Shown: in pieces, positions 18,307 through 32,035 of the stretch
Layout of the letters: the number at the start of each line of letters is the position of its first letter
Position numbering within the stretch: position 1 is the first letter of the stretch
Source: an uncultured Cryomorphaceae bacterium
GTDB lineage: Bacteria; Bacteroidota; Bacteroidia; Flavobacteriales; Schleiferiaceae
NCBI GenBank assembly: GCA_913049845.1
Contig: CAJWZE010000012.1
Span: forward strand, 1 to 35,039
Length of the DNA stretch: 35,039 bases
Direction: 5' to 3'
Position numbers and translations under genes: made by a program
Notes under the pieces: model-generated
Seen by the model: the letters and a program-made list of their open reading frames with translations, nothing else
What the model was told of the DNA's origin: nothing
Database searches by the model: none

Positions 18307-19722
18307 ATGAACAACGCACTCTTTTTACTCGTATTGCTCCTTTATGTGGGTCTTTTAGCTTTTGTTGGCCGCATAACCTCACGCGGAGCATCCAACGCCA
18401 CTTTCTTCAATGCGAATAAAAATGCCAATTGGCTGCTGGTGAGTTTTGGGATGATTGGTGCATCACTATCTGGAGTGACGTTTATCAGTGTCCCCGGCTG
18501 GACAGCCGCTTCAGGCATGACTTACATGCTTATGGTGGTCGGTTATTTTTTAGGGTACCTGTTCATTGCGAGCGTTTTGTTGCCCATATACTACAAGAAT
18601 AATGTGATCAGCATTTACGAGTTTCTAGGCATTCGTTTGGGTTTGGAAAGTTACAGAACTGGTTCGCTATTTTTCTTACTTTCAAGAATCGTCGGTGCTG
18701 CGGCACGATTGTATATCGTTTCCATGGTCGTACAAGTGCTAATATGCGATACGCTGGGCATTCCATTCGTAATTACTGCGCTATCCATTCTGCTTCTCAT
18801 CGCTATCTATAGCGCCTCAGGCGGCATTGCCACCATCGTTTTTACAGATACGCTTCAAACGACACTAATGCTCGTAGCTGCGGTGATGGCTTTTTACTTC
18901 GTAGGTAAGGCAGTAGTTCCCGTGGATCGTAGCTATGTAGACTTTCTCTCCAGCCATCCAGACTGGCGTTTTGTAGAGGTTACCGGTGCTAAATCTTGGT
19001 GGCGTCAATTGCTAGGTGGTGTGTCAATTGCCATTGCAATGACAGGGCTGGACCAAGATATGATGCAAAAAAACCTTACCGTAAAACACCTTAAGGATGC
19101 ACAAAAGAACATGGTGTTGCTGGGCGCTACATTGCTTGTGGTGAACCTATTATTCTTATCGTTGGGCATTTTTTTAACTGAATTTGCAGCAAGTACAGGC
19201 ATCACGGCTACAGGGGATAAACTATTCTCAGCCATAGCGATGCATCCATCGCTCCCTATCGCGCTCCCTATTGTATTTTTTCTAGGCCTTCTTGCGGCAG
19301 CATTCTCGAGTGCGGACAGTGCGCTAACCTCCTTAACTACCGCATTTTGTATTGACTTTTTAGGTATGAAGTCCAACGGGTCAACCAAGTTACGTACAAG
19401 AGTTTATGTCGGATTCATGGTTTTACTTTTAGGGGTAATGCTTTTGATTTATACCTTGAAATCGGAGAGTATCATTAGTACGCTTTTTACAGCAGCGGGA
19501 TACACCTATGGGCCGTTGGTGGGGCTCTTTAGCTTCGCATTGTTGTTTAAGCGTACCGTTAGAGGATGGGCTGTGCTTGCCGTTTGTGTTGCAGCTCCAC
19601 TGGTCGCATACCAAATAAGCTTATGGGTACCCCAGTTGGGATACGCCATAGGCTTTGAATTATTAGTGTACAATGGCCTGCTCACATTGCTTGGTTTGCT
19701 GTCTATTAGCAAACGCGCTTAG
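18307..19722 (+). CDS. Sodium/solute symporter (SSS, SLC5 family), substrate unknown
   Basis: This 471-residue protein is almost entirely membrane helices (about 12-13), with the LeuT-like fold of the SSS family. Landmarks are SFGMIGASLSGVTFISVPGW in the first core helix, TDTLQTTLMLVAAVMAFYFV, TGLDQDMMQKNLTVKHLKDA, and the sodium-site helix AAFSSADSALTSLTTAFCID. These proteins use the sodium gradient to import sugars, amino acids, or other solutes. The substrate cannot be read from sequence. The plus-strand CATATTTG ending at 18301 is close to the -7 consensus but only six bases from the ATG. The gene ends tail to tail with the subtilisin gene, with a four-base overlap. Confidence 0.92.
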   Translation: MNNALFLLVLLLYVGLLAFVGRITSRGASNATFFNANKNANWLLVSFGMIGASLSGVTFISVPGWTAASGMTYMLMVVGYFLGYLFIASVLLPIYYKNNVISIYEFLGIRLGLESYRTGSLFFLLSRIVGAAARLYIVSMVVQVLICDTLGIPFVITALSILLLIAIYSASGGIATIVFTDTLQTTLMLVAAVMAFYFVGKAVVPVDRSYVDFLSSHPDWRFVEVTGAKSWWRQLLGGVSIAIAMTGLDQDMMQKNLTVKHLKDAQKNMVLLGATLLVVNLLFLSLGIFLTEFAASTGITATGDKLFSAIAMHPSLPIALPIVFFLGLLAAAFSSADSALTSLTTAFCIDFLGMKSNGSTKLRTRVYVGFMVLLLGVMLLIYTLKSESIISTLFTAAGYTYGPLVGLFSFALLFKRTVRGWAVLAVCVAAPLVAYQISLWVPQLGYAIGFELLVYNGLLTLLGLLSISKRA

Positions 19723-22700
19723 AGCTTACTGATATTTTGACTCACGGTTCCTGCGGTCGATTGCACCTTCACGGTGTACATACCAGCAGGTAGGCTGCTG
19801 AGGTCCAAATGAAAGATTTCGTTAAGCTCTGCATACGTCGAGCGTTGCAGTAGTGTACCGACCATCGAATAGATTTCAATGGATGCTTCACCCAAATCAC
19901 CAGCGTTAGCCACGTTTAACACATCATTGGTTGGGTTTGGATAAAATACCATTGGCATCGTGCTTTCTTCATCCAGCCCAATATTATTAAAGGTTGTGAT
20001 TGTACTATCTAATCCACAATCTGTCGTGACAATCAGTTTCACAGTGTAAGAACCTTTGGTGGCATAAGTATGCTGCGGATTTTGTTGGTTACTTGAATTA
20101 CCATCTCCAAAATCCCAGAACCACGCGGTTGGTGCAGGTGTAGAGTAGTCTTGGAAATTATACGTCAAACCTCCCGCAAGTCCCAAGGTGAACTGAGGAC
20201 GTAGCTTCGGCCCAGGAACGAGCAGTGCAGAATCTGCGACAAACGTATTCTCATTGTAGTATACATATTCGAGGTAATAGTCCGTTGCTGAGGTGAGTGT
20301 AGAAGTGTGAGTACCCATACCCATAAAAGTATTCACGATGGATGAACCCTGACGATTCAAGCTAAAGTTCCCTGCCAACGTTGTATCCGTGCTGCTCAAA
20401 GCAAAGTTGAACAACTCATCCTCACAAATCAATGCGGGTAGGTCTAATGTTGCTGCAGAAGGTGTGCCTGAGAGGTCGATTACACGTATATTATCGAGGT
20501 ATAAGTTGTTACCATAGCCACAGATGCCTACGAACTCGAATTGGACATAGTTTGAAGTTAAGTTGGATAAACTCACCGTATCTGTTCTCCATTCAGAAGG
20601 GTCATTAGGTACAAACGTTGAGGTGCTTGTTCCTGCTGTACTCAGGTCGACACCTCCTTTCAGATAAAGTGTATCGAATGTGCTGCCACAATCGTCACTT
20701 ACGACTACCGCAAGCTGATCGAAGTATGAGGTTGAATATGGTGCGTAGCTTAAATCAAACATAAGAGTAGGGTTAGTGTATCCACTGATATCAAACTTTG
20801 GACTCAATAGACCGTCGGTGGTACCTACGGCATTGTAATTGAAGTAGCCCATATACATCACACCTGTTTTGGCTCCGATAGGTCCATCTACATCACCGCG
20901 TGTCCAAGTCATTCCGCCATCCGCATTCCGCACGATGAAATCCCCAAGGCTGTTTGTGGTAAATGTCTGTACTACAGGCAAGCTAGGCAATGCATTAACT
21001 ACAATATCATTGGTTTTTGTGATGGTATCACTGCCGTAGGTGTTCGTTGCAATCAATGTAATAGTATAACTGCCCACTGCGCTGAAGCTTACCTGCGGGT
21101 TTTGTGAGCTCGCAGAAGAACTGTTCACAAAGCTGAACGTGGCAGGAGTTATAGTCCAATTCCAGCTCGTAGGCGACTTCGTGCTTTCATCTAGAAGCGT
21201 CATTGGAGCGTTCAAACACGGTGTTGAAGTCGAAGCAGTGAAGTCTGCTAAAGGCGTTCCTATTTTATCTTCAATGGCAATGTTATCAATTGCTATATCA
21301 CTTTGGTAATCATTCCCAGTAGTTCCGGTAAAGCGCAACAAAACTGTATCTCCTGTAAAGGCGCTTAGGTCCGTATTCAACGTCTTCCAGCTGTTGCCTT
21401 GATCACCACTTAAACTAAGCAAGTTGGTCCATGAAGTACCGTCGAATATTTCAACGACCAATTCACCCATTGTTGCGCCGTACATGTGGTAGGCAAAATC
21501 TAGTTCTGGAGCGACGGCACCACTTAAATCAATACAAGGGCTGTATAACACAGCATTTTGGAAATTACAATTTCCTGAACTTTCTAGGTACAGATATTTA
21601 CCGCTGTTACCGAATCCTGATGAAGGCCCCGTGCCGTTTGAAGCGGTACCACCGCCGTTGGTTCTCCAATCGATATCATCCTCTGAGCCATTACTGAGGT
21701 TGGTCCAATCTCCGGCAAGGTTACATACAGTAGACCCACAGTTGGTGTTGGTACCACAGTTGTTGAAGGCGTTGAAGTCTTGCAGGAACGGCAAGCTGTA
21801 CAATGAAGAGTTCAAATAGGTAATGGTTTGATCAACGGTATCGTTCTGCGCATTCATATCACCACTAAGCTCTGTCCAAGCACGGATGGAACCATTGCTT
21901 GTCCCAGACCAAGTAATCGGATTAGGGAATACGAATACGGTATCTGCATACGGCGCTATGGAATCAAAAATGGTGTCGCGAACGACTGTACCTAAGTATT
22001 CGTAGGCTACAGGCAGTGTATCTAGGATATTAGTTGACGGATTTCGAACTTGAACCGCTACATCAATCGTACTGCTCTGACAGCTGCTTACAAATTGTGG
22101 ATTCATCACTGCCTTCAGCTCTAAATCACGCGGCAATGGACAGTTTTGGATACCACTCGGTAGATCAACGGCGTACGAGCGCTTCCCAAAAGCTCCGTTG
22201 TAATTCGCTGAAGCACTAATCCAAGTATCAGTGCTCACCACGTAAGGAATGACCATAGTATTGCTTGAGGAAGTAAAGACTGAATCCATGTATTTCGTCC
22301 CTAGAATGTAAGCCGTGTAGTCGGTTGCTGAAGTCACGGAGTTAATGGTCACTTTTAAGCTGTCCGGACACACCCAATCTACAGTAAGACCCGAAGGCTG
22401 TGCCATAACGGTCATGGGACCTACTACTGAAGTGTCACCGTTTTTAATCACGCGCAAATACGCCTCATCCGTTGGATTGTTTGGAACGTTCCAGTTGGCC
22501 ATTCCTTGACCCGTAATAGGGTTCAACGTAAGATTGTTCCAAGAGCTTCCTCCATTTGAAGAGTATTGCCAGCTTAATCCGTTAGTTTCTCCGTCCCAGC
22601 GAACGACCATAGCCCCTGGGGTCAACGACTGACCAGTAAAAGGATAGACAATTTGCGTGCGTTCTACAACGACGTCGTAGACTACATAGAAGGTCTGCGG

Positions 22701-24479
22701 ACCCTGTGGCACGTTAGTTCCGTAGACAGTAAAACGGTAATCACCGTTGCTCGGGGCATCGATAGTGACTTGCTCCGTGTTGTTCAAGGTATCGGTAGCA
22801 CGTACTGCGAGGTTATTCAGGGTAACGTTGTTTGGTGTTGGGTTTAGTACCCAAGGCTGGTAGGTTGTTGAACCGGTTAGGTCAGTTACTGTGAAGTCCA
22901 GATTGTTCACCAAAGCCTTGGAAGCAAAGGTAGAACCTTCCTTGTCCGTCCAGTAGAGCATTGTACGTAATTCACGTGCACCGCTCGGTACGTTGATATC
23001 GTATGTCAATGTATCACCCGTTGTGATAGAGTTGGTAAACCACGCTGTATCACGGATGGTTCGAATGGCACGACGAGTATTTATTCGTCCGTATCCGAAA
23101 ATAAAATCTGGACCGTTATTACCAAGGTCATCTGCCGTATTCATTGCAATGGCTTTCAATAAACCGCCGGTGGCGGTATCGCCTTGCAATTCGTCGTGGG
23201 CATTGTGGAGCACGGTAAAGAATCCGGCTACACCTGGCGCGGCCATAGAAGTACCCGACTTAAAACCGTAGGTGTGTCCATCGATAGTCGAATAGACGTT
23301 GGTCCCTACCGCAGCAAGATCCGGCTTAATACGTCCATCCGCGGCAGGTCCTCGTGAAGAAGAAGGCGCAATAGCATCGAGATAGGTTATGTTGGCAGTG
23401 GCTACCACATTCTTTCCTTGTTTGTGTCCCCCTGTTACATTCCCCCATTGGGAACCTGCACCATACCCACAATTTGAGCCGTTGTTGTTACCAGCACTAA
23501 ATACGTGCATCAACGCCGGGTTATCACGAATATCCTTATCCATTTGTTGGGCGTACGCTGTGTAACCGGCATTACAACCGTTCGAGTACGAACTGTTCGT
23601 CACACGAATTCCGTACAGTGAATAGTGGTTGTCAATATTGCTGAGATTTTGTGGATAATTGTAGTAAACCATGGTAGCACCTGTAGCATTACCGGCACCG
23701 TCTGGGTCGATATTACCTGCGCCAAAGACCGTTCCCGCTACGTGGTCGCCGTGGTCACCAATAGAGTTTCCTGCCAATGAGATAAGGCGTCCGCGGTAAT
23801 CGTCGTGCGGGCCGATGTCTCCATCATCGCCAACACCCACCACAACATTTTCACCGGTATATTCACCGTCCTGCTGAATGAAGGCCACTCGTGAAGAAGC
23901 ACGGCTGTTCTCATTTTCAATAGTTCCCGGCTCCTCAATCGCTTGGATGAACAATACATGAGGTTCTTTGGCTAATTTTTCCAGGTCCTTAATCTTCAAC
24001 GAAGCCGTGTACCAGCCGTCTCGCAGTGGCAGCATACCTTTACTGTAACGAAGTGAGGTTGAGAATTCTGGAGCAGTTAAGAATTGGACGGCAATGTTTC
24101 CGTTGTTTAACACAGCCCAAGAAGGAATGTCTCCGATGCTCAAAGGACCGTCTAATTTCATGCGCGGCGTCCATGCGGTGAATGCACGAACTCCTGCAGC
24201 CTTCAGGTCTGAAGCACTCACACCTTTTGGCAGACGCACTTCAAATGCGTTTTCTGGTAAATAATGGAAGAGTTCTACCCCTAAATCCAACAATGCTTTT
24301 TTATCTTCGGCAAGCACTGCGTGATTCCACAAGGCAACCCCATATGTTGGGCTGCTGCTTTGAATCTGAAGGTAGCTGCCTTCAGTTAAGTAGTAGGTGC
24401 CCGATTTTAAGTTCAACTTTAATTGGGCGTTAGCGGATACAGAAAAAGCGGTGATTAATACGAGTAAAAATCTCTTCAT
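19719..24479 (-). CDS. Secreted S8 (subtilisin-like) peptidase with MAM-like and PKD domains and T9SS sorting domain
   Basis: This 1586-residue protein starts with a Sec signal peptide (MKRFLLVLITAFSVSANA). A propeptide-like region (about 20-195) precedes the S8 domain, with predicted Asp218 (VVVGVGDDGD), His246 (GDHGDHVAGT), oxyanion Asn331 (FSAGNNNG) and Ser411 (GTSMAAPGVAG). Downstream are a P-domain-like beta region (about 480-620) and a fibronectin/Ig-like part. A MAM-like jelly-roll with YHMYGA follows, then a PKD-like domain (SWNWTITP), another jelly-roll, and a canonical PKD domain (WFWDFGDGNSSNQQNPQHTY). The type A T9SS sorting domain at the end starts MVFYPNPTNDVLNV. It should be exported to the cell surface or medium and degrade protein. 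All catalytic residues are present. Its start codon abuts that of the divergent deacetylase gene with no spacer. Confidence 0.93.
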   Translation of the reverse strand: MKRFLLVLITAFSVSANAQLKLNLKSGTYYLTEGSYLQIQSSSPTYGVALWNHAVLAEDKKALLDLGVELFHYLPENAFEVRLPKGVSASDLKAAGVRAFTAWTPRMKLDGPLSIGDIPSWAVLNNGNIAVQFLTAPEFSTSLRYSKGMLPLRDGWYTASLKIKDLEKLAKEPHVLFIQAIEEPGTIENENSRASSRVAFIQQDGEYTGENVVVGVGDDGDIGPHDDYRGRLISLAGNSIGDHGDHVAGTVFGAGNIDPDGAGNATGATMVYYNYPQNLSNIDNHYSLYGIRVTNSSYSNGCNAGYTAYAQQMDKDIRDNPALMHVFSAGNNNGSNCGYGAGSQWGNVTGGHKQGKNVVATANITYLDAIAPSSSRGPAADGRIKPDLAAVGTNVYSTIDGHTYGFKSGTSMAAPGVAGFFTVLHNAHDELQGDTATGGLLKAIAMNTADDLGNNGPDFIFGYGRINTRRAIRTIRDTAWFTNSITTGDTLTYDINVPSGARELRTMLYWTDKEGSTFASKALVNNLDFTVTDLTGSTTYQPWVLNPTPNNVTLNNLAVRATDTLNNTEQVTIDAPSNGDYRFTVYGTNVPQGPQTFYVVYDVVVERTQIVYPFTGQSLTPGAMVVRWDGETNGLSWQYSSNGGSSWNNLTLNPITGQGMANWNVPNNPTDEAYLRVIKNGDTSVVGPMTVMAQPSGLTVDWVCPDSLKVTINSVTSATDYTAYILGTKYMDSVFTSSSNTMVIPYVVSTDTWISASANYNGAFGKRSYAVDLPSGIQNCPLPRDLELKAVMNPQFVSSCQSSTIDVAVQVRNPSTNILDTLPVAYEYLGTVVRDTIFDSIAPYADTVFVFPNPITWSGTSNGSIRAWTELSGDMNAQNDTVDQTITYLNSSLYSLPFLQDFNAFNNCGTNTNCGSTVCNLAGDWTNLSNGSEDDIDWRTNGGGTASNGTGPSSGFGNSGKYLYLESSGNCNFQNAVLYSPCIDLSGAVAPELDFAYHMYGATMGELVVEIFDGTSWTNLLSLSGDQGNSWKTLNTDLSAFTGDTVLLRFTGTTGNDYQSDIAIDNIAIEDKIGTPLADFTASTSTPCLNAPMTLLDESTKSPTSWNWTITPATFSFVNSSSASSQNPQVSFSAVGSYTITLIATNTYGSDTITKTNDIVVNALPSLPVVQTFTTNSLGDFIVRNADGGMTWTRGDVDGPIGAKTGVMYMGYFNYNAVGTTDGLLSPKFDISGYTNPTLMFDLSYAPYSTSYFDQLAVVVSDDCGSTFDTLYLKGGVDLSTAGTSTSTFVPNDPSEWRTDTVSLSNLTSNYVQFEFVGICGYGNNLYLDNIRVIDLSGTPSAATLDLPALICEDELFNFALSSTDTTLAGNFSLNRQGSSIVNTFMGMGTHTSTLTSATDYYLEYVYYNENTFVADSALLVPGPKLRPQFTLGLAGGLTYNFQDYSTPAPTAWFWDFGDGNSSNQQNPQHTYATKGSYTVKLIVTTDCGLDSTITTFNNIGLDEESTMPMVFYPNPTNDVLNVANAGDLGEASIEIYSMVGTLLQRSTYAELNEIFHLDLSSLPAGMYTVKVQSTAGTVSQNISKL

Positions 24480-26861
24480 ATGTCAGTTAGAAATTGGACT
24501 ACTAAGATAACATCAAAACGACGCATTGTTCAGGCTTTGGTGCTAGTCTTCACTGTAGGTTCTGTGAATCAAGGAGTTGCGCAATACAAGCCCCTGGACA
24601 GAAGCGAAACTTTGGCTGAAATGCAGCGTTTCGCTTCGGGTAAAAGAGTGCTGTATATGGCGGCGCACCCCGACGATGAAAACACCCGTTTGATTGCATG
24701 GTTGTCCAATGCCTTGGATGCAGAAACTACCTATCTCTCACTGACTAGAGGCTCAGGTGGTCAAAATCTCATTGGCGATGAACTAGGTGCTGACTTAGGT
24801 ATCATTCGTGAGCACGAATTACGCGCCGCACGCAATGTGGATGGTGGGAATCAATGTTTTACCGATGCCTTAGATTTCGGATATTCCAAAAGTGTGGACG
24901 AGGTGTGGAGCAAATGGGATCACGACGACCTGCAGCTTCAAGCTGTGCGCATCATACGTGAACTCATGCCGGATTTTATTATTACGCGTTTCCCTCCAGA
25001 CGAGAGAGCAGGCCACGGCCACCACACGGCATCGGCCGAATTAGCCATTGAATGCGCTGAACTGGCCGCGGATGAGAAATACGATACAGAAACAGCGCCT
25101 TGGTCGGTGCAGGGCGTCTGGTGGAACACCTCTGTTTGGTGGGACCCAAGACTAAAAGACGATCCAGAGGCGGTTCAGCTAGATATGAGCGGTTTTGACC
25201 CGCTTTTAGGTGAAACTTATGGTGCCATTGGTGATGCTGCTCGCTCCATGCACAAATGCCAGGGTTTTGGTGTGCCTATTAACCGTGGCCCGCGCGAGGA
25301 ATATTTCAAGAAGCTTTGGGGTGGAGGCGATTTTGCCGGGTATTTAGATACAGAAACCTCTACAATGGAGGACGACGCAGTGCTGGCTTCGGATGCTGCT
25401 TTTGCATTGGAGATTGGCGATAGAAGCCAAGCCATTTCTAAGTGGGCTTCACTTGGCGGTTCACTGCTCGAAAAATCGGCTCCTACTTCCGATAAGTACC
25501 AGCGTTGGCAACAGGTTATGCTGCATCTCTTGGGAGTGTATGCTGAGGTGTATACCTCGGAAAATCCTTTAATAGAAAACACGGCTCACCCGGCTATGCT
25601 GAAGATTCAATGTATGAATCCTGATGTAAATGTGGCTATTGCTTCTGTTATGACAGCAGGAAAAAACATAGGATTGAATCCCGCCCAAGAAGTCAGTAAT
25701 GAAGGCTTTCAGCAGGAAATTGATTTGATGTTGGGTAGAGAACAAGCTACGAATGTTGTCAAGGTTCGTCTACAGAGTGACCAATCAATAATCATTCTTC
25801 ATTTGTTGCCTGTTGCAAAACTCTTTGATCGTGCCATAGGGGAATACCGAGAGGCCTTAGTCATTGAACCGGCCGTTCATGCGAAGTTCGACCAAAGAGT
25901 GTATTGGAGCACCGGAAAAGGCACCGCTGTAGGTTACTCTATCCATGCGAATAGTGCAGGTAAACAGCAATGGGCAGTTTTAGCCAAGAATCAACAGGGT
26001 ATTATTGTTTGGAACAGTGGCCACAACGAGGTCGAACTTTCGAAAGGTTGGAATCACTTTACAGCTGAGGTGCCAAAATCGATAGAGAAAGGAAAATTTA
26101 CACTACATATTACCCCTCATACCAAGATGGAAGGCATGTCTTTTTCTTTGCCGTTGCTCAAAGAAGAACATAAGATTTCCTACCCGCACATTGGAACGCA
26201 TTACCGCTTTATTGAGGCTTCTAGTACACTAGCCATATTAAATTTAAATAAAAAGCGCATCAAAGTAGGCTACATTGAAGGTGCCGGTGATATTATGGAC
26301 GAAACCCTAGAAAATTTGGGTTATGAGGTACTTCGAATCAAGGAGAATACCCCGGATTTATGGAACGAAGTGGATGCTGTACTTGTGGGAATCCGCGCCT
26401 TTAATACCGAGACATGGCTAATGAATAGTGGTCATAATATAAAGAGCTTCGTTGAAGGTGGTGGCAATTTTGTCGTGACTTACACAACTGCTGGAAGAAA
26501 CGGTACGGAACTGCCTACGCCGCTGCCAGTAGTTATCGGAAGAGACCGTGTGACCGAAGAGGACGCACCGATTACCCTTAGCAAACACCCGATACTTTCT
26601 TCCCCAAATGAGATTACGTCTTCAGATTTTAACTATTGGGTTCAGGAGCGTGGATTGTATTTCCCTAAATCTTACGAAGGGTTCACTGAAGTACTCACCA
26701 TTACGGAAAGTACAGGTACGAACTATTCCAACAGCACCGTTGTTGGACATTATGGAAAAGGTTCCGTAATTTACACGGGATTGTCATTGTTTAGAGAACT
26801 GCCTGCAGGCGTTCCAGGTGCCATTAAACTTTTACAAAACATACTCCATTATGACCATTAA
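24480..26861 (+). CDS. Exported PIG-L family deacetylase with C-terminal glutamine-amidotransferase-like domain
   Basis: This 793-residue protein has a positively charged N-terminus (TSKRR) followed by a hydrophobic stretch and a VAQ-type end near residue 35, consistent with a signal peptide. The PIG-L/LmbE domain (about 45-290) contains the zinc motif AAHPDDE (His63, Asp65, Asp66) and the second metal motif GHGHHTAS (residues 178-185). A beta-rich middle part follows. A C-terminal domain from about 595 (IKVGYIEGAGDIMDETLENL, then VDAVLVGIRAFN and FVEGGGNFVVTYTT) resembles class I glutamine amidotransferase-like/ThuA folds without an evident catalytic triad. PIG-L enzymes remove acetyl groups from GlcNAc-like sugars; an extracytoplasmic amino sugar or glycoside substrate is an inference. 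No internal ATG could replace the start at 24480 without losing the signal peptide. The stop overlaps a small downstream gene. Confidence 0.9.
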   Translation: MSVRNWTTKITSKRRIVQALVLVFTVGSVNQGVAQYKPLDRSETLAEMQRFASGKRVLYMAAHPDDENTRLIAWLSNALDAETTYLSLTRGSGGQNLIGDELGADLGIIREHELRAARNVDGGNQCFTDALDFGYSKSVDEVWSKWDHDDLQLQAVRIIRELMPDFIITRFPPDERAGHGHHTASAELAIECAELAADEKYDTETAPWSVQGVWWNTSVWWDPRLKDDPEAVQLDMSGFDPLLGETYGAIGDAARSMHKCQGFGVPINRGPREEYFKKLWGGGDFAGYLDTETSTMEDDAVLASDAAFALEIGDRSQAISKWASLGGSLLEKSAPTSDKYQRWQQVMLHLLGVYAEVYTSENPLIENTAHPAMLKIQCMNPDVNVAIASVMTAGKNIGLNPAQEVSNEGFQQEIDLMLGREQATNVVKVRLQSDQSIIILHLLPVAKLFDRAIGEYREALVIEPAVHAKFDQRVYWSTGKGTAVGYSIHANSAGKQQWAVLAKNQQGIIVWNSGHNEVELSKGWNHFTAEVPKSIEKGKFTLHITPHTKMEGMSFSLPLLKEEHKISYPHIGTHYRFIEASSTLAILNLNKKRIKVGYIEGAGDIMDETLENLGYEVLRIKENTPDLWNEVDAVLVGIRAFNTETWLMNSGHNIKSFVEGGGNFVVTYTTAGRNGTELPTPLPVVIGRDRVTEEDAPITLSKHPILSSPNEITSSDFNYWVQERGLYFPKSYEGFTEVLTITESTGTNYSNSTVVGHYGKGSVIYTGLSLFRELPAGVPGAIKLLQNILHYDH

Positions 26862-26964
26862 GACAACACAGACATTGAATTGGAAGAAGTACTACATCGG
26901 CGTAATTGCCCTTCTAGTCGTTGAGATTGTTTTGTTTTACTTCATCACGCGCGATTTCGTATAA
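26851..26964 (+). CDS. 37-residue single-pass membrane peptide, putative symporter accessory subunit
   Basis: An ATG at 26851, inside the last four codons of the deacetylase gene, opens 37 codons ending in TAA 26962-26964. The next base is the A of the symporter ATG. The peptide starts MTIKTTQTLNWKKYY, has one hydrophobic helix (YIGVIALLVVEIVLFYFI, about residues 15-32), and ends TRDFV. The charge pattern (KK before the helix, short R/D tail) is that of a real small membrane protein. The overlap upstream and zero spacing downstream strongly suggest translation. Two-component symporters in the same superfamily use small membrane partners (for example DUF485 or DUF4212 proteins), but those have more helices and this one is not a recognised relative. 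Function is inferred only from position. Confidence 0.75.
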   Translation: MTIKTTQTLNWKKYYIGVIALLVVEIVLFYFITRDFV

Positions 26965-28620
26965 ATGCACCCATTAGATTGGATTGTATTAGGAGCTACT
27001 CTAGCACTTATCGTAGGTTACGGGGTATATGAGACCCGTAAAGGCGCCACAGCAAGCGAACTTTTAAGCGGCTCGAAGACGGTAAGTCCCTTGACCATTG
27101 GATTGGGGATTATGGCCACTCAAGCTTCCGCTATTACCTTCCTAAGCACCCCGGGCCAGGCGTTTGCAAATGATATGGGTTTTATCCAGTTCTATTTCGG
27201 AATGCCTCTTGCCGTCGTTTTGGTCAGCATATTCTTTGTGCCTGCTTATCGAAAGATGCGTGCCATCACTGCATACCAATTCTTGGAAGAGCGCTTCGAC
27301 CGCAAGACTCGCCTTTTCACAGCAGCATTGTTTTTGACCTCTCGAGGCCTTAGCGCGGGCATCACCATTTTCGCTCCGGCCATCGTACTTTCGGCTGCCA
27401 TTGGCGTACCGCTGAATACTATGATCATCATTATAGGTGCCATTGTTGTGGTCTATACCGTAAGCGGAGGATCAGCGGCCGTTGCCGTCACGCAGAAATG
27501 GCAGATGACCGTCATTTTATTGGGTATGGCGATAGCAGCAACCATTTTGATAAACCTTATTCCAGTAAGTATGTACGATGCCTACCACATTGCGGGTAAT
27601 ATGGGCAAGCTGGACATTGTAAGTACGTCCTTTGACCCGGGTACACGGTATACGTTGTGGTCTGGACTGGCCGGTGGACTCTTTTTATCGCTAAGTTACC
27701 TAGGTACAGACCAAAGCCAAGTGCAGCGCTATTTGGGCGCCGAGGACGAACGCAGTTCTAAATTTGGCTTGCTTTTTAATGCCACCTTCAAGGTGCCTAT
27801 GCAGTTCGCAATTCTTGCCATTGGTGTCCTGCTTTTTGTTTTTTACCAATTCGTTAAACCGCCTATTTTTTTTAATCAAAGCGAGATTGAACGTGCTCCG
27901 GTTGAGATTCAGCAGCAATTGCAGTCCCTTGAGCTCGAACATGCTCTTGCTTGGGATTCTAAGCGTGAGGCATTGGTTAACACAGATTGGGATGGGGCTC
28001 GATACTACGATGAACTTCAAGAACAATACCGTGCTTCCTATATGGATTTACTTGACGAAAATCTGAGTAGCTTTCAACCTAAGGATACGGATTATGTATT
28101 CATCACCTTCATTCTTGAAAACCTGCCTAAAGGGCTCATAGGGCTGTTATTGGCTGTTATCATCAGTGCCGCAATGTCTTCTACCGCCGGTGAAGTGAGT
28201 GCTTTGGCGACAACAACTTATGTGGATTATTTCCAAGTCTTCTTTGGCAAAAATGACCACAACGAAAAACGTACAATCAGAACGCTAGTTCTTCTTTGGG
28301 GTATTGCCGCTATCCTGGTGGCACTGGCAGCGCCGCTCTATGAGAACCTCATACAGCTAGTTAATGTACTAGGTAGTCTTTTTTACGGCACTATTCTGGG
28401 TATCTTCCTGGTGGGACTATTCTTGAAAAAAGTGGGTGCTAATCAAGTGTTTATTGGCGGACTCATCGCTCAAGTGACTATTTTCATTTGCCACTATTTG
28501 AATTCTAAAGGCGCACTATCCATAGGATTTTTATGGTATAATGTAATTGCTACGCTTATTGTGATTGGTTTATCGATGTTGCTTCACTTTGGCTTAAGAC
28601 GAGGAACCATTCATGAATAA
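26965..28620 (+). CDS. Sodium/solute symporter (SSS family) with large hydrophilic insertion
   Basis: This 551-residue protein belongs to the SSS/SLC5 superfamily. Core landmarks are MATQASAITFLSTPGQAFAN in the first core helix, TVSGGSAAVAVTQKWQMTVI, LGTDQSQVQRYLGAEDERSS, and the sodium-site helix ISAAMSSTAGEVSALATTTY. Unlike the 471-residue symporter at 18.3 kb, it carries a charged, helix-forming insertion of about 75 residues at about 298-375 (rich in Glu, Gln, Leu and Tyr), between a membrane helix and TDYVFITFILENLPKGLIG. The ATG follows directly after the stop of the 37-codon gene, so it is translationally coupled to it. With the upstream deacetylase it probably imports a released or deacetylated sugar-like product. 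It ends two bases from the convergent YkgJ-type gene. Confidence 0.92.
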   Translation: MHPLDWIVLGATLALIVGYGVYETRKGATASELLSGSKTVSPLTIGLGIMATQASAITFLSTPGQAFANDMGFIQFYFGMPLAVVLVSIFFVPAYRKMRAITAYQFLEERFDRKTRLFTAALFLTSRGLSAGITIFAPAIVLSAAIGVPLNTMIIIIGAIVVVYTVSGGSAAVAVTQKWQMTVILLGMAIAATILINLIPVSMYDAYHIAGNMGKLDIVSTSFDPGTRYTLWSGLAGGLFLSLSYLGTDQSQVQRYLGAEDERSSKFGLLFNATFKVPMQFAILAIGVLLFVFYQFVKPPIFFNQSEIERAPVEIQQQLQSLELEHALAWDSKREALVNTDWDGARYYDELQEQYRASYMDLLDENLSSFQPKDTDYVFITFILENLPKGLIGLLLAVIISAAMSSTAGEVSALATTTYVDYFQVFFGKNDHNEKRTIRTLVLLWGIAAILVALAAPLYENLIQLVNVLGSLFYGTILGIFLVGLFLKKVGANQVFIGGLIAQVTIFICHYLNSKGALSIGFLWYNVIATLIVIGLSMLLHFGLRRGTIHE

Positions 28621-28622
28621 CG

Positions 28623-29126
28623 CTACGATCTAGCTTTCATCCGTTCTACCATCTCATACACTGCGGGGCAGTGACGAAAATTGATTTCTGTCAGCCCTAA
28701 AATTGATTTCATATTAGTGTAATCGGTATGCGGGTATTGCCGACAAGCTCTTGGCGCATATTCGTAGATGGTGCATTTGTTTGTGGCCAATTCTAAGAAT
28801 GGACATGGCAAACTTTTCATCACCCAATCGCCATCTTCATCTACACGTAAATAGTGCTTTTCAAACGCCGCTGGTTTCATACCTTGCTTTTTCGATATTC
28901 GCTTAATGTCTTGTTTGGTGAGCAGCGGTCCCGTTGCGCGACAACATCGTGCACATTTGAGGCAGTCTGTTTCGGCAAAGACTTCCTCGTGTACTGCATG
29001 AAATTTGGCATTGAGCTTCGTACCTTCTTGCTTGGATAATCGGTCAAAGAACTTCTTGTTCTCTTTCCTTTTGGAACGAGAAAGCTCTTTGAAATTTGGC
29101 CATATGTGTTCAAGGTAATTATCCAT
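28623..29126 (-). CDS. YkgJ-family cysteine cluster protein (putative zinc/iron-binding)
   Basis: This 167-residue protein carries the UPF0153/YkgJ pattern. CLKCARCC has Cys55, Cys58, Cys61 and Cys62. Cys108 (LPCPFL), Cys118 (NKCTIYEYAPRACRQYP), Cys128 and a final Cys153 (FRHCPAV) complete eight cysteines that could bind a metal or an Fe-S cluster. The N-terminal 50 residues are helical and basic. The biochemical role of the family is not established. The start overlaps the end of the thioredoxin-like lipoprotein gene by eight bases, so it is the last gene of a three-gene operon. Confidence 0.9.
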   Translation of the reverse strand: MDNYLEHIWPNFKELSRSKRKENKKFFDRLSKQEGTKLNAKFHAVHEEVFAETDCLKCARCCRATGPLLTKQDIKRISKKQGMKPAAFEKHYLRVDEDGDWVMKSLPCPFLELATNKCTIYEYAPRACRQYPHTDYTNMKSILGLTEINFRHCPAVYEMVERMKARS

Positions 29127-30312
29127 TCGCTTTTGCCACTAATTCTTCTAATTCTTCTCTGGTTTCTTTTACATAAGCATCATATTCCTTGGTGGAAGGA
29201 CCGTAAAAGCCCGTGTAGATCTTTACCACGTTTCCCTGGTGATCCAACATAATAGAAGTAGGGTAGCTTCGTATTTGCTCTAACGGCAATATGGCATTGC
29301 GGTCCTGTTTAGCATCGTAGGTGGCAATAACCATGGGGAAGGAGGTACCGAGGTCGTGCTCCATTTTCTGTACTGCAGCCGTAGCTTTTTCCAAAGTCCC
29401 ACTGTATTCGTAGCTCAGTCCGAAAACATCAATAGCTCCCTCAAATTCACGGTAGTATTGGTCTAATACACGACCTTCGTCCATGCAGTTCGGACACCAG
29501 GAACCTTGGATGGCCAAGATTGTAGGCTTGGTGACGGTACGGCTATCAAAATCAACAGTATCCCCATTCAAGCCCGGAAAATGCCATTCGATATGCGTAT
29601 AATCTTTACGCAACTTTGACATTTCTTCGGGATCCTCCAACATAGCGTTAGCATCAGCTGCACCTGAGAATGAATAGTAGCCGGTCATCCCTGCCCAAAC
29701 GTGGCCTTCAATGTTGCCATCGGTAATGGTAGCACGGACTTTGTATATGAATCTGCCGTCGAAGCCCAAGAGCTCAAAACCACCCTCGACCTCGTAACCT
29801 GTCATGAATCTGCTGTCCCCTGTGGATGTTGCAATAGTCCCTACGAGAATACCGTCTTTTTTATTCAGCTGCAGCAATGCAGACTTCTCCTCGCCGTCAC
29901 CCATGTAGCGGGTAATGGCATATTGGCTAGAAAAGGCCGAAGGGCTCTGGCCATAGGTCATACGTCCAGGTGTTAGCTCCATAGGTAATCGATAATTATT
30001 TGCGTCCGTGCGGTAGTATTCACCTTTAAACCCATCTTCTGTGGCAACGAGCCAGAGGTCAGAGGCGAATACAGGGAAAGTACCTCGAAGGGTATCTTCT
30101 CCACTTACAGTGACTTCAAAAGATTCCTGTACTCCGTTGTTAAACGTGAGTATGTCTTCCTCGAGGTGAACATTAAAGGATACTCGGGTGGAGTCGTTTT
30201 GGATGATTGATCCAATGAAATATTCTCTAGTAGCTTCTATAGCTTCTGGCTCTGGCGATGCGCAAGAAAAAAAGGCCATCGAAATGGCCCCTGTAACAAT
30301 GAAATTCTTCAT
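29119..30312 (-). CDS. Thioredoxin-like (TlpA/ResA type) lipoprotein with uncharacterised N-terminal domain
   Basis: This 397-residue protein has a short lipoprotein signal (MKNFIVTGAISMAFFSC, lipidated Cys17), with a tolerant lipobox as often seen in Bacteroidota. Residues about 20-235 form a beta-rich domain I do not recognise by name (for example LDGRF-like GFDGRFIYKVRATITDG and GHVWAGMTGYYSFSGAA). The thioredoxin fold occupies about 240-397, with the redox motif WCPNC (Cys273, Cys276) in AIQGSWCPNCMDEG and the cis-proline in RSYPTSIMLD. It should act as a periplasmic thiol-disulfide oxidoreductase on an envelope or cytochrome-type partner. It follows the phosphohexomutase gene after only seven bases and overlaps the YkgJ-type gene. 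Confidence 0.9.
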   Translation of the reverse strand: MKNFIVTGAISMAFFSCASPEPEAIEATREYFIGSIIQNDSTRVSFNVHLEEDILTFNNGVQESFEVTVSGEDTLRGTFPVFASDLWLVATEDGFKGEYYRTDANNYRLPMELTPGRMTYGQSPSAFSSQYAITRYMGDGEEKSALLQLNKKDGILVGTIATSTGDSRFMTGYEVEGGFELLGFDGRFIYKVRATITDGNIEGHVWAGMTGYYSFSGAADANAMLEDPEEMSKLRKDYTHIEWHFPGLNGDTVDFDSRTVTKPTILAIQGSWCPNCMDEGRVLDQYYREFEGAIDVFGLSYEYSGTLEKATAAVQKMEHDLGTSFPMVIATYDAKQDRNAILPLEQIRSYPTSIMLDHQGNVVKIYTGFYGPSTKEYDAYVKETREELEELVAKANG

Positions 30313-30319
30313 GTCTGAA

Positions 30320-32035
30320 TTAAAGGTTCAATTCCTCAATAAAGGTATCAATCTTTCTTTCAAGTTCTGCCTTGGTGGCTGCATGGTTCTCGCCAGTTGA
30401 AGTGCATACGCTGAAGTAAAACTTAATTTTCGGTTCGGTTCCCGAAGGACGGGCACTGACCTTATCCCCAGCCTCAGTGATAAACTGCAAAACGTTTGAA
30501 GCAGGCAGCTCAGTGCTTGTCGTTGCTCCACTGCGTAGAGCGGTTTGAGTGGAGTTACTGTGGTCGATAGCAACAACAACGGGTGACCCCGCCAAGGTTT
30601 TAGGTGGGTGGTTGCGTAGGGCAGTCATCATATCAGCAATCTCCTGGGCGCCTGAGCGTCCTTTCTTGGTGATGGAAATCAAACGCTCTTGGTATTGACC
30701 AAATTCACGGTGGATGGCTTCTAACTGATCGAGTACGGTACGGCCTTGCGCCTTAGCATGGGCAGCCATTTCAGCAATCATAACTGCAGATGCTACTGCA
30801 TCTTTATCGCGAACAGAATCTCCGATGAGGTAGCCGTAGCTCTCCTCACCACCAACCATGAAGTTCATCTCCGGCTTATTGTTGATGATATCTGCGATCC
30901 ACTTAAACCCTGTCAAACAGCGGAAACAAGGAATGTTGTAGCGTTCTGAGATTTTAGCGATCAAATCCGTAGTTACTACAGTTGCTGCAGTGAAGGGATT
31001 ATCTGGAACGGCATTATGAGCATCTGCTTGACTCAGTACATAATGTACAAGCAATGCTGCAGTATCGTTTCCATTTAGCAGCTGCATCTTACCTGTGCCG
31101 TCGTTTGCCGCGATACCTACGCGGTCGGTATCCGGATCACAACCAATTACAATGTCACTGCCACTGGCTTGTGCTTGGCCAATACCCATCGCGAGCGCGG
31201 CACCTTCCTCAGGGTTTGGGCTGACCACCGTAGGGAAATTGCCGTCTGGATTGGCTTGTTCTTCAACGATGTGTACGTTAGTAAAGCCACTAGCCTTGAG
31301 TGCAGGTGGGACGCTTACGATAGAAGTTCCGTGCAGGGCGGTAAATACCACTTTAAGATCCTCTTTGCCATCGTTGTTGAGGCTTTGGGCCACGACATTA
31401 GCAATGTATTTTGAGTCGATAGCCTCACTGATCGTTTCGATGAGGTCTTCATTGGCGTTCCAGTTGATGTCTTCAAATTTAGTTTGACGCACTTTAGCGA
31501 TAACGCCACCGTCGTGTGGTGGGACCAATTGGCCACCGTCGTTCCAATACACCTTGTATCCGTTGTATTCCTTGGGATTATGTGAGGCTGTCAAAACGAT
31601 ACCGAAATCACAGCCTAGCTCGCGTACAGCGAAGCTCAGCTCCGGGGTAGGGCGCAATTCTTTAAACAAATACGTGTGTACACCATTGGCACTCAATACT
31701 TCGGCAACCTTGCGGGCAAAAGCCTTGGAGTTATTGCGGCTGTCGAAGGCGATAGCTGCTTTAAGGTCTTTACGACCATAGGTCTCCTTGGCGTAATTTA
31801 TTAAGCCCGTAGTTGCCGTACCCAGGGTATATGGGTTGATTCGGTTAGTACCTACTCCCATTATTCCGCGCATACCGCCGGTTCCGAAGTCAAGGTCTCT
31901 GTAAAACGGTTCGATCAAATAGTCGCCGCCTTTATCAAGCAGGGCTTGTGCCTCTGCTCGGGTTTCCTCATCGAAAATACCTGAAGTCCAAAGCTTTGCA
32001 TTTTGTGTAGCTATGGATAGTACGTCTGTGTTCAT
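30320..32035 (-). CDS. Alpha-D-phosphohexomutase (phosphoglucomutase/phosphomannomutase)
   Basis: This 571-residue protein has the size of the PgcA/PGM2-like branch. The phosphoserine loop is LTASHNPKEYNGYKVYW (Ser151), the magnesium loop is GCDPDTDRVG, the sugar-binding loop is GGEESYG, and the phosphate-binding C-terminal loop is RPSGTEPKIKFY. FGTGGMRGIMG near residue 50 is the N-terminal signature. It interconverts hexose 1- and 6-phosphates (glucose or mannose) in the cytoplasm. The ATG at 32035 (MNTDVLSIATQNAKLW) is preferred over one four codons upstream. A minus-strand -7 match, TATTTTTG, at 32061-32068 gives a leader of about 20 bases. First gene of the operon with the thioredoxin-like lipoprotein and YkgJ-type genes. 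Confidence 0.94.
   Translation of the reverse strand: MNTDVLSIATQNAKLWTSGIFDEETRAEAQALLDKGGDYLIEPFYRDLDFGTGGMRGIMGVGTNRINPYTLGTATTGLINYAKETYGRKDLKAAIAFDSRNNSKAFARKVAEVLSANGVHTYLFKELRPTPELSFAVRELGCDFGIVLTASHNPKEYNGYKVYWNDGGQLVPPHDGGVIAKVRQTKFEDINWNANEDLIETISEAIDSKYIANVVAQSLNNDGKEDLKVVFTALHGTSIVSVPPALKASGFTNVHIVEEQANPDGNFPTVVSPNPEEGAALAMGIGQAQASGSDIVIGCDPDTDRVGIAANDGTGKMQLLNGNDTAALLVHYVLSQADAHNAVPDNPFTAATVVTTDLIAKISERYNIPCFRCLTGFKWIADIINNKPEMNFMVGGEESYGYLIGDSVRDKDAVASAVMIAEMAAHAKAQGRTVLDQLEAIHREFGQYQERLISITKKGRSGAQEIADMMTALRNHPPKTLAGSPVVVAIDHSNSTQTALRSGATTSTELPASNVLQFITEAGDKVSARPSGTEPKIKFYFSVCTSTGENHAATKAELERKIDTFIEELNL

Follow-up and report, generated by a model that had tools for sequence, protein, structure and literature searches.

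Bacterial symporters of the sodium:solute symporter (SSS) family can carry small two-span subunits, the DUF4212, DUF485/YjcH, DUF997/YhdT and DUF3311 proteins, which are small membrane proteins encoded just before the symporter itself. Single-span microproteins, among them KdpF, AcrZ and CydX, act as partners of membrane complexes. In the human SGLT2 and SGLT1 systems, a single helix, MAP17 (PDZK1IP1), is assigned to a transporter of the SSS/SLC5 fold. According to structural work, this helix contacts TM13 of SGLT2 and belongs to a fixed scaffold, being required for transport and aiding stability and surface expression (PMC10803289); the authors also argue from the structures against MAP17 acting directly on activity (PMC10803289).

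Here, we describe a bacterial peptide of 37 residues that is probably an accessory subunit of the SSS symporter encoded next to it. The gene lies in a stretch of 35,039 nucleotides from an uncultured Cryomorphaceae bacterium (hereafter the window, meaning the whole stretch), as the second of three consecutive genes on one strand (Table 1). Its translation reads MTIKTTQTLNWKKYYIGVIALLVVEIVLFYFITRDFV and is followed by a TAA stop. The ATG falls within the last 11 bases of the PIG-L gene, in another frame, while the stop directly abuts the symporter ATG, with zero gap and in the same frame. The 11-base overlap recurs in 12 of the 14 other loci of the genus (L005-L017, L019), the two exceptions being a locus cut before PIG-L (L008) and one scored from a later ATG (L011). 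The protein contains a single hydrophobic stretch, at about residues 14-33. Both the layout (an ATG in the 3' end of the deacetylase gene, 37 codons and a stop abutting the symporter ATG) and the one membrane helix had been described in the initial annotation, and both hold. A second, distant SSS symporter is encoded in the window at 18367-19185 (open frame of 478 aa; where the two match, identity is 25%), and no such small peptide gene precedes it.

Table 1. Features of the three-gene locus in window coordinates.
Feature	Position	Strand	Basis
PIG-L family metallo-hydrolase, 793 aa, first of the three genes	24480..26861	+	PF02585, AHPDDE motif
PIG-L/small gene overlap, 11 bases, ATGACCATTAA	26851..26861	+	sequence reading
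Small gene, 37-residue single-span membrane protein (stop included)	26851..26964	+	family profile matches, pN/pS
W11 codon, best conserved family residue (99% weighted)	26881..26883	+	family alignment
Predicted membrane helix, residues 14-33, one conserved face	26890..26949	+	conservation moment
SSS-family sodium:solute symporter, 551 aa, probable partner	26965..28620	+	PF00474, TIGR00813, AlphaFold model

Like the DUF4212, DUF485, DUF997 and DUF3311 subunits, the peptide is a small membrane protein whose gene immediately precedes that of an SSS symporter, but it has one hydrophobic segment where those have two helices, and none of the four families was among the Pfam/NCBIfam matches of 50 members scanned at E 0.1. 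It shares its size and its single helix with KdpF, AcrZ and CydX; KdpF (NF011332) matched one of the 50 members at E 0.071, which is no convincing family match. Unlike MAP17, the peptide is bacterial, 37 residues long and encoded beside its transporter. Compared with the sequences of PDB chains down to a permissive E of 10, our peptide profile (A2) returned three unrelated chains and no MAP17 chain, so the peptide would be an analogue of MAP17 and not a recognised homologue.

The small open reading frame (ORF) is a genuine protein-coding gene, although at 37 residues it is below the reach of most gene finders. Across 14 genomes of the genus (the window's included), the 33 codons outside the PIG-L overlap have a pN/pS of 0.176 in the peptide frame versus 1.24 and 1.37 in the other two frames, and the variable columns at codon positions 1, 2 and 3 number 11, 8 and 31 of 33, a pattern from which we conclude that the peptide is under purifying selection; the first 33 codons of the symporter gave 0.265 in the genus comparison. 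The family profile recovered the small ORF from the window's own genome at E 2.5e-13, a value that includes the window's peptide itself as a profile row, with the next candidate at 0.018, and the ORF is far beyond chance. A small frame of the same pattern precedes the symporter at all 29 loci that we inspected, including the window's own and loci where symporter identity is down to about 50%; this set was drawn up without the paralogue loci and without L018, in which the match begins at residue 65. A search with the symporter as query in 100 related genomes added 31 orthologous loci, not counting three partial matches in G020, G035 and G049, with the small ORF present in 21 (at least 16 bits) and absent in 10 (at most 0.6 bits). 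None of nine symporter paralogue loci has the ORF (at most 1.1 bits), nor does any of three in a second locus set (L002-L004, two genes), the two sets overlapping in one gene, L002/L065, that is counted in both. The initial annotation had staked its reading on a conserved frame upstream of orthologous symporters with coding bias, and had confined it to one symporter subfamily: the frame at 29 of 29 loci and the in-frame pN/pS strongly favour that reading, and the paralogues, where the restriction was tested, agree with it.

The gene is widely distributed. In a set of 80 named loci, two of which hold no upstream DNA (L074 and L130), a scan revealed the small ORF in 77 of the 78 others (at least 13.2 bits), and the remaining one, L116, has it 190 bases upstream of the symporter. 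By record title, the carriers belong to Flavobacteriaceae, Saprospiraceae and Cytophagales (e.g., Marivirga, Pontibacter, Algoriphagus and Persicobacter) and also include metagenome-assembled genomes (MAGs) labelled Myxococcales (L080) and Deltaproteobacteria (L108), titles being taken as given. Among all fetched loci with a symporter match, 137 of 145 have a small ORF above 10 bits, a count that contains same-contig duplicates (e.g., L001/L156, L107/L177, L116/L175 and L018/L074) and loci that are themselves profile seeds. The eight misses are the paralogue loci L002-L004, three loci with no upstream DNA (L018, L074 and L130), and L163 and L165, in which the peptide gene is found elsewhere in the genome and not before the symporter.

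We then surveyed 295 genomes of the class blindly, using profile A2 (50 peptides, 37 positions) with no gene as reference and a cut-off of E <=1e-4; six or more of the genomes (G000, G103, G149, G220, G285 and G356 among them) had themselves contributed rows to the profile. The survey gave 113 matches in 112 genomes, of which 104 share the strand of the symporter and lie no more than 200 bases ahead of it, the farthest listed at 193 bases. The nine others comprise a second, weak match in G220, five cases at apparent contig breaks (G169, G178, G317, G318 and G379), and three genomes (G204, G294 and G300) in which the peptide gene adjoins PIG-L and the symporter is elsewhere. In G220 (C141:706-774 and 2402-2518; loci L175/L116), the peptide sits ~190 bases before the symporter and the second, weak match ~1.6 kb upstream.

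The symporter is present in 150 of the 295 genomes (E 1e-80) and PIG-L in 157 (E 1e-100), the two occurring together in 148 and either alone in 11. Genomes with the peptide have the symporter in 110 of 112 cases, the two without it, G318 and G379, being contig-end matches, and PIG-L in 112 of 112. Among the 40 symporter genomes without a blind match, we read 37 locally (all except G214, G277 and G322) and found a weaker family ORF in 20 (10.9-25.9 bits) and none in 17. The gene is carried by 130 of 147 examined symporter genomes and, being absent from 17, is not obligatory for them; since genomes share descent, such counts do not represent independent events. Ten of the 17 belong to a single genus, g50 of family f24 (G107, G151, G187, G219, G249, G278, G305, G332, G357 and G381), which has symporter and PIG-L with no upstream peptide; in G151, G187, G249 and G332 the symporter match (E 1e-80) spans only the first 313-330 profile positions. 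Plasmid records gave no symporter match at E 1e-40.

Family members are about 30-55 residues long, with start codons chosen by rule. In an alignment of 129 distinct peptides (about 91 effective), conservation reaches 99% at W11 and 97% at Y15. Along residues 14-34, a stretch that we chose, the conservation moment is highest at 100-105 degrees (p 0.00075 by permutation, computed at 100 degrees), and the conserved residues Y15, V18, I19, L22, I26, F29 and T33 line one face of the helix, flanked by W11 and F/Y36. Conservation of a single face over the full length of the helix suggests that the helix packs against a partner and is more than an anchor. Lysines precede the helix, so that by the positive-inside rule the N terminus is likely cytoplasmic.

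The peptides represent a protein family without a convincing Pfam or NCBIfam model, and 112 of the 295 genomes sampled from the class carry a member. The scan of 50 members listed 5 NCBIfam and 16 Pfam families at E 0.1, none of them convincing, and the window's own peptide matched nothing at that threshold. The best Pfam match, DUF3413 (PF11893; 2 of 50 members, E 5.1e-4), and the best NCBIfam match, TIGR03745 (1 of 50, E 0.018), we take to be matches to the composition of a hydrophobic stretch. Among the open-access papers listed by literature searches, none dealt with the peptide-symporter pair or with the small family.

The symporter matches PF00474 with 109.2 bits (cut-off 22.8) and TIGR00813 with 204.9 bits (cut-off 184). 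A 75-residue insertion noted on first inspection is consistent with the two-stretch TIGR00813 match and with gap-rich columns of alignment A1, the figure of 75 being that of the initial annotation. The AlphaFold model of the symporter, compared with the PDB using Foldseek, resembles SiaT best (5nva and 5nv9; E 1.2e-18 and 2.2e-18), with a TM-score by target of 0.87 against 5nva, and SGLT2 chains of SGLT2-MAP17 entries match it from rank 8 on; the model thus predicts an SSS (LeuT-type) fold. We also ran AlphaFold on two natural in-frame pairs as tethered chains, the intervening stop being read as a residue. The symporter is well folded in these pair models, whereas the mean pLDDT of the peptide per ten-residue block is 41, 57, 54 and 48 in the window pair and, improved in part only, 58, 80, 65 and 41 in a Polaribacter pair, a placement too poor to name an interface.

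The upstream neighbour matches PF02585 with 54.4 bits (cut-off 28.2), and AHPDDENT is invariant in a 20-row PIG-L alignment (A3). It shares the PF02585 domain and the AHPDDE motif with the LmbE-like enzymes Mca/Bca and BshB, but differs from them in its length of about 800 residues, its large C-terminal part and an N terminus that by eye is signal-like. Mca is the best NCBIfam match for the PIG-L proteins of the window and of L108; the window protein is far below the equivalog cut-offs of Mca (31.1/277.15 bits), MshB (27.6/224.35), BshB2 (26.7/195.25) and BshB1 (13.4/182.5). By sequence, the PIG-L profile matched only LnmX in the PDB (5bmo, E 0.00086).

We consider it probable that the peptide is a genuine single-span inner-membrane protein acting as an accessory subunit of the adjacent SSS symporter. 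Its lysine-rich N-terminal end would be in the cytoplasm and its short C-terminal tail in the periplasm, and the conserved helix face may lie against the outer surface of the symporter bundle, in the way that MAP17 packs on SGLT2. From there, the peptide could help the transporter to fold, to remain stable or to keep a fixed scaffold through the alternating-access cycle. Translation of the three genes may proceed as one run, in which overlapping or abutting starts would keep small subunit and transporter in step. The PIG-L hydrolase would be periplasmic and would release a product that the symporter would import.

A helper that assists assembly, insertion or quality control of the symporter and is no lasting subunit of it is a possible alternative, to which we give less credence. 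It draws on the same linkage data, and loss of the gene in some lineages suits a dispensable helper; MAP17 itself is argued to act on folding and localisation (PMC10803289). The present data fit a helper and a subunit alike.

An unlikely alternative gives the peptide to the deacetylase, as a partner or membrane anchor of PIG-L whose place before the symporter would reflect operon order. The three genes do form one inherited set: PIG-L accompanies the peptide in every peptide genome and, where its position is known (108 of 112), lies within 400 bases upstream in 82. In the other 26, PIG-L is farther away (within 2 kb in 8, elsewhere in 18), and in all 26 the peptide stays beside the symporter. 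The reverse split, in which the peptide gene follows PIG-L and is parted from the symporter, occurs in three genomes of the same sample (G204, G294 and G300), five further cases being apparent contig breaks; G044 and G052, from the family sample, show it as well. Nine genomes have PIG-L but no symporter. Two of these are G318 and G379, which hold the peptide at a contig end, and the other seven (including G343, 71% complete, and G355, 80% complete) gave no peptide match at the blind-profile cut-off; in the five read locally (all but G350 and G355), the best ORF near the PIG-L end reached 4.9 bits and no peptide was found. In several named species (e.g., Marivirga sericea, two Tenacibaculum and a Persicobacter), no PIG-L is found upstream and the symporter is still preceded by the peptide, and in named examples the gene upstream of the peptide is one other than PIG-L. 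At one locus (L121:2968-4857), two ORFs, one of them dicarboxylate-symporter-like by eye, separate PIG-L from the peptide. The profile matches, the 26 splits against 3 and the lack of a match in any of the seven PIG-L genomes without symporter all weigh towards the symporter and against PIG-L, and we assign the peptide to the symporter, which is the more likely partner and the one first proposed.

We regard it as highly improbable that the ORF acts only in translation, as a leader or coupling device that opens the symporter start site, and that the peptide itself is inert. Overlaps and zero gaps are indeed common, the distance from the profile end being -1 in 38 of 103 cases and 2 in 34; selection nevertheless acts on the amino acids, the helix face is kept across the class, the five genomes with the reverse split retain the gene at a distance from the symporter, and both the gap length, up to 190 bases, and the frame vary. 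Stop read-through as biology was rejected on the varying frame: 36 of 130 peptide-symporter pairs are in frame (33 with one stop, 14 of them from the window's genus, and 3 with two) and 94 are out of frame, in a count that excludes seven duplicate, partial or distant loci. No fusion of peptide and symporter was noticed among the loci inspected. A chance ORF in the gene junction, conceivable for a frame so short in a region (22000-32000) overlapped by 98 ORFs of at least 30 residues, is refuted by the conservation and codon results and by its absence from all nine paralogue loci.

The peptide family is widespread in the class and linked to a single transporter and a single hydrolase, and the pair offers a small bacterial system for asking how SSS/SLC5 transporters make use of single-helix partners. 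That symporter and PIG-L are inherited together also points to one uptake pathway worth naming. LmbE-like amidases serve to recover glucosamine from thiol conjugates, as is stated for Mca and, "presumably", for Bca (PMC4101496). A periplasmic PIG-L working with an importer for a thiol-conjugate fragment is a testable guess, no more. That the peptide is an independently arisen bacterial counterpart of MAP17, required by a Bacteroidota symporter for whatever a periplasmic PIG-L amidase releases from bacillithiol or its conjugates, is a long shot; if true, the cell would be salvaging part of a thiol cofactor from its periplasm.

The link of the three-gene set to bacillithiol metabolism is a lead only. 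The symporter is found in 149 of 275 BshC-positive versus 1 of 20 BshC-negative genomes (Fisher 8.9e-6), a figure with strong relatedness behind it, as the BshC-negative genomes cluster in few families. With BshC in 275 of 295 genomes and BshA in 271, neither gene is rare enough to be informative. Inspected by eye, 15 listed loci gave no usable recurring gene beyond the three as a clue to substrate. Among the gene places listed for the class genomes, the smallest distance between bshA and the symporter noticed by eye is about 14 kb (G171). Bacillithiol synthesis genes are close by in two MAG contigs whose labels name other phyla: L108 (L108:187-6701) has the order bshB1, bshA, PIG-L, peptide, symporter, and L130, labelled Chthoniobacterales (L130:1-4451), has a BshB1-like gene (131.8 bits, under the cut-off of 182.5) and bshA downstream of the symporter.
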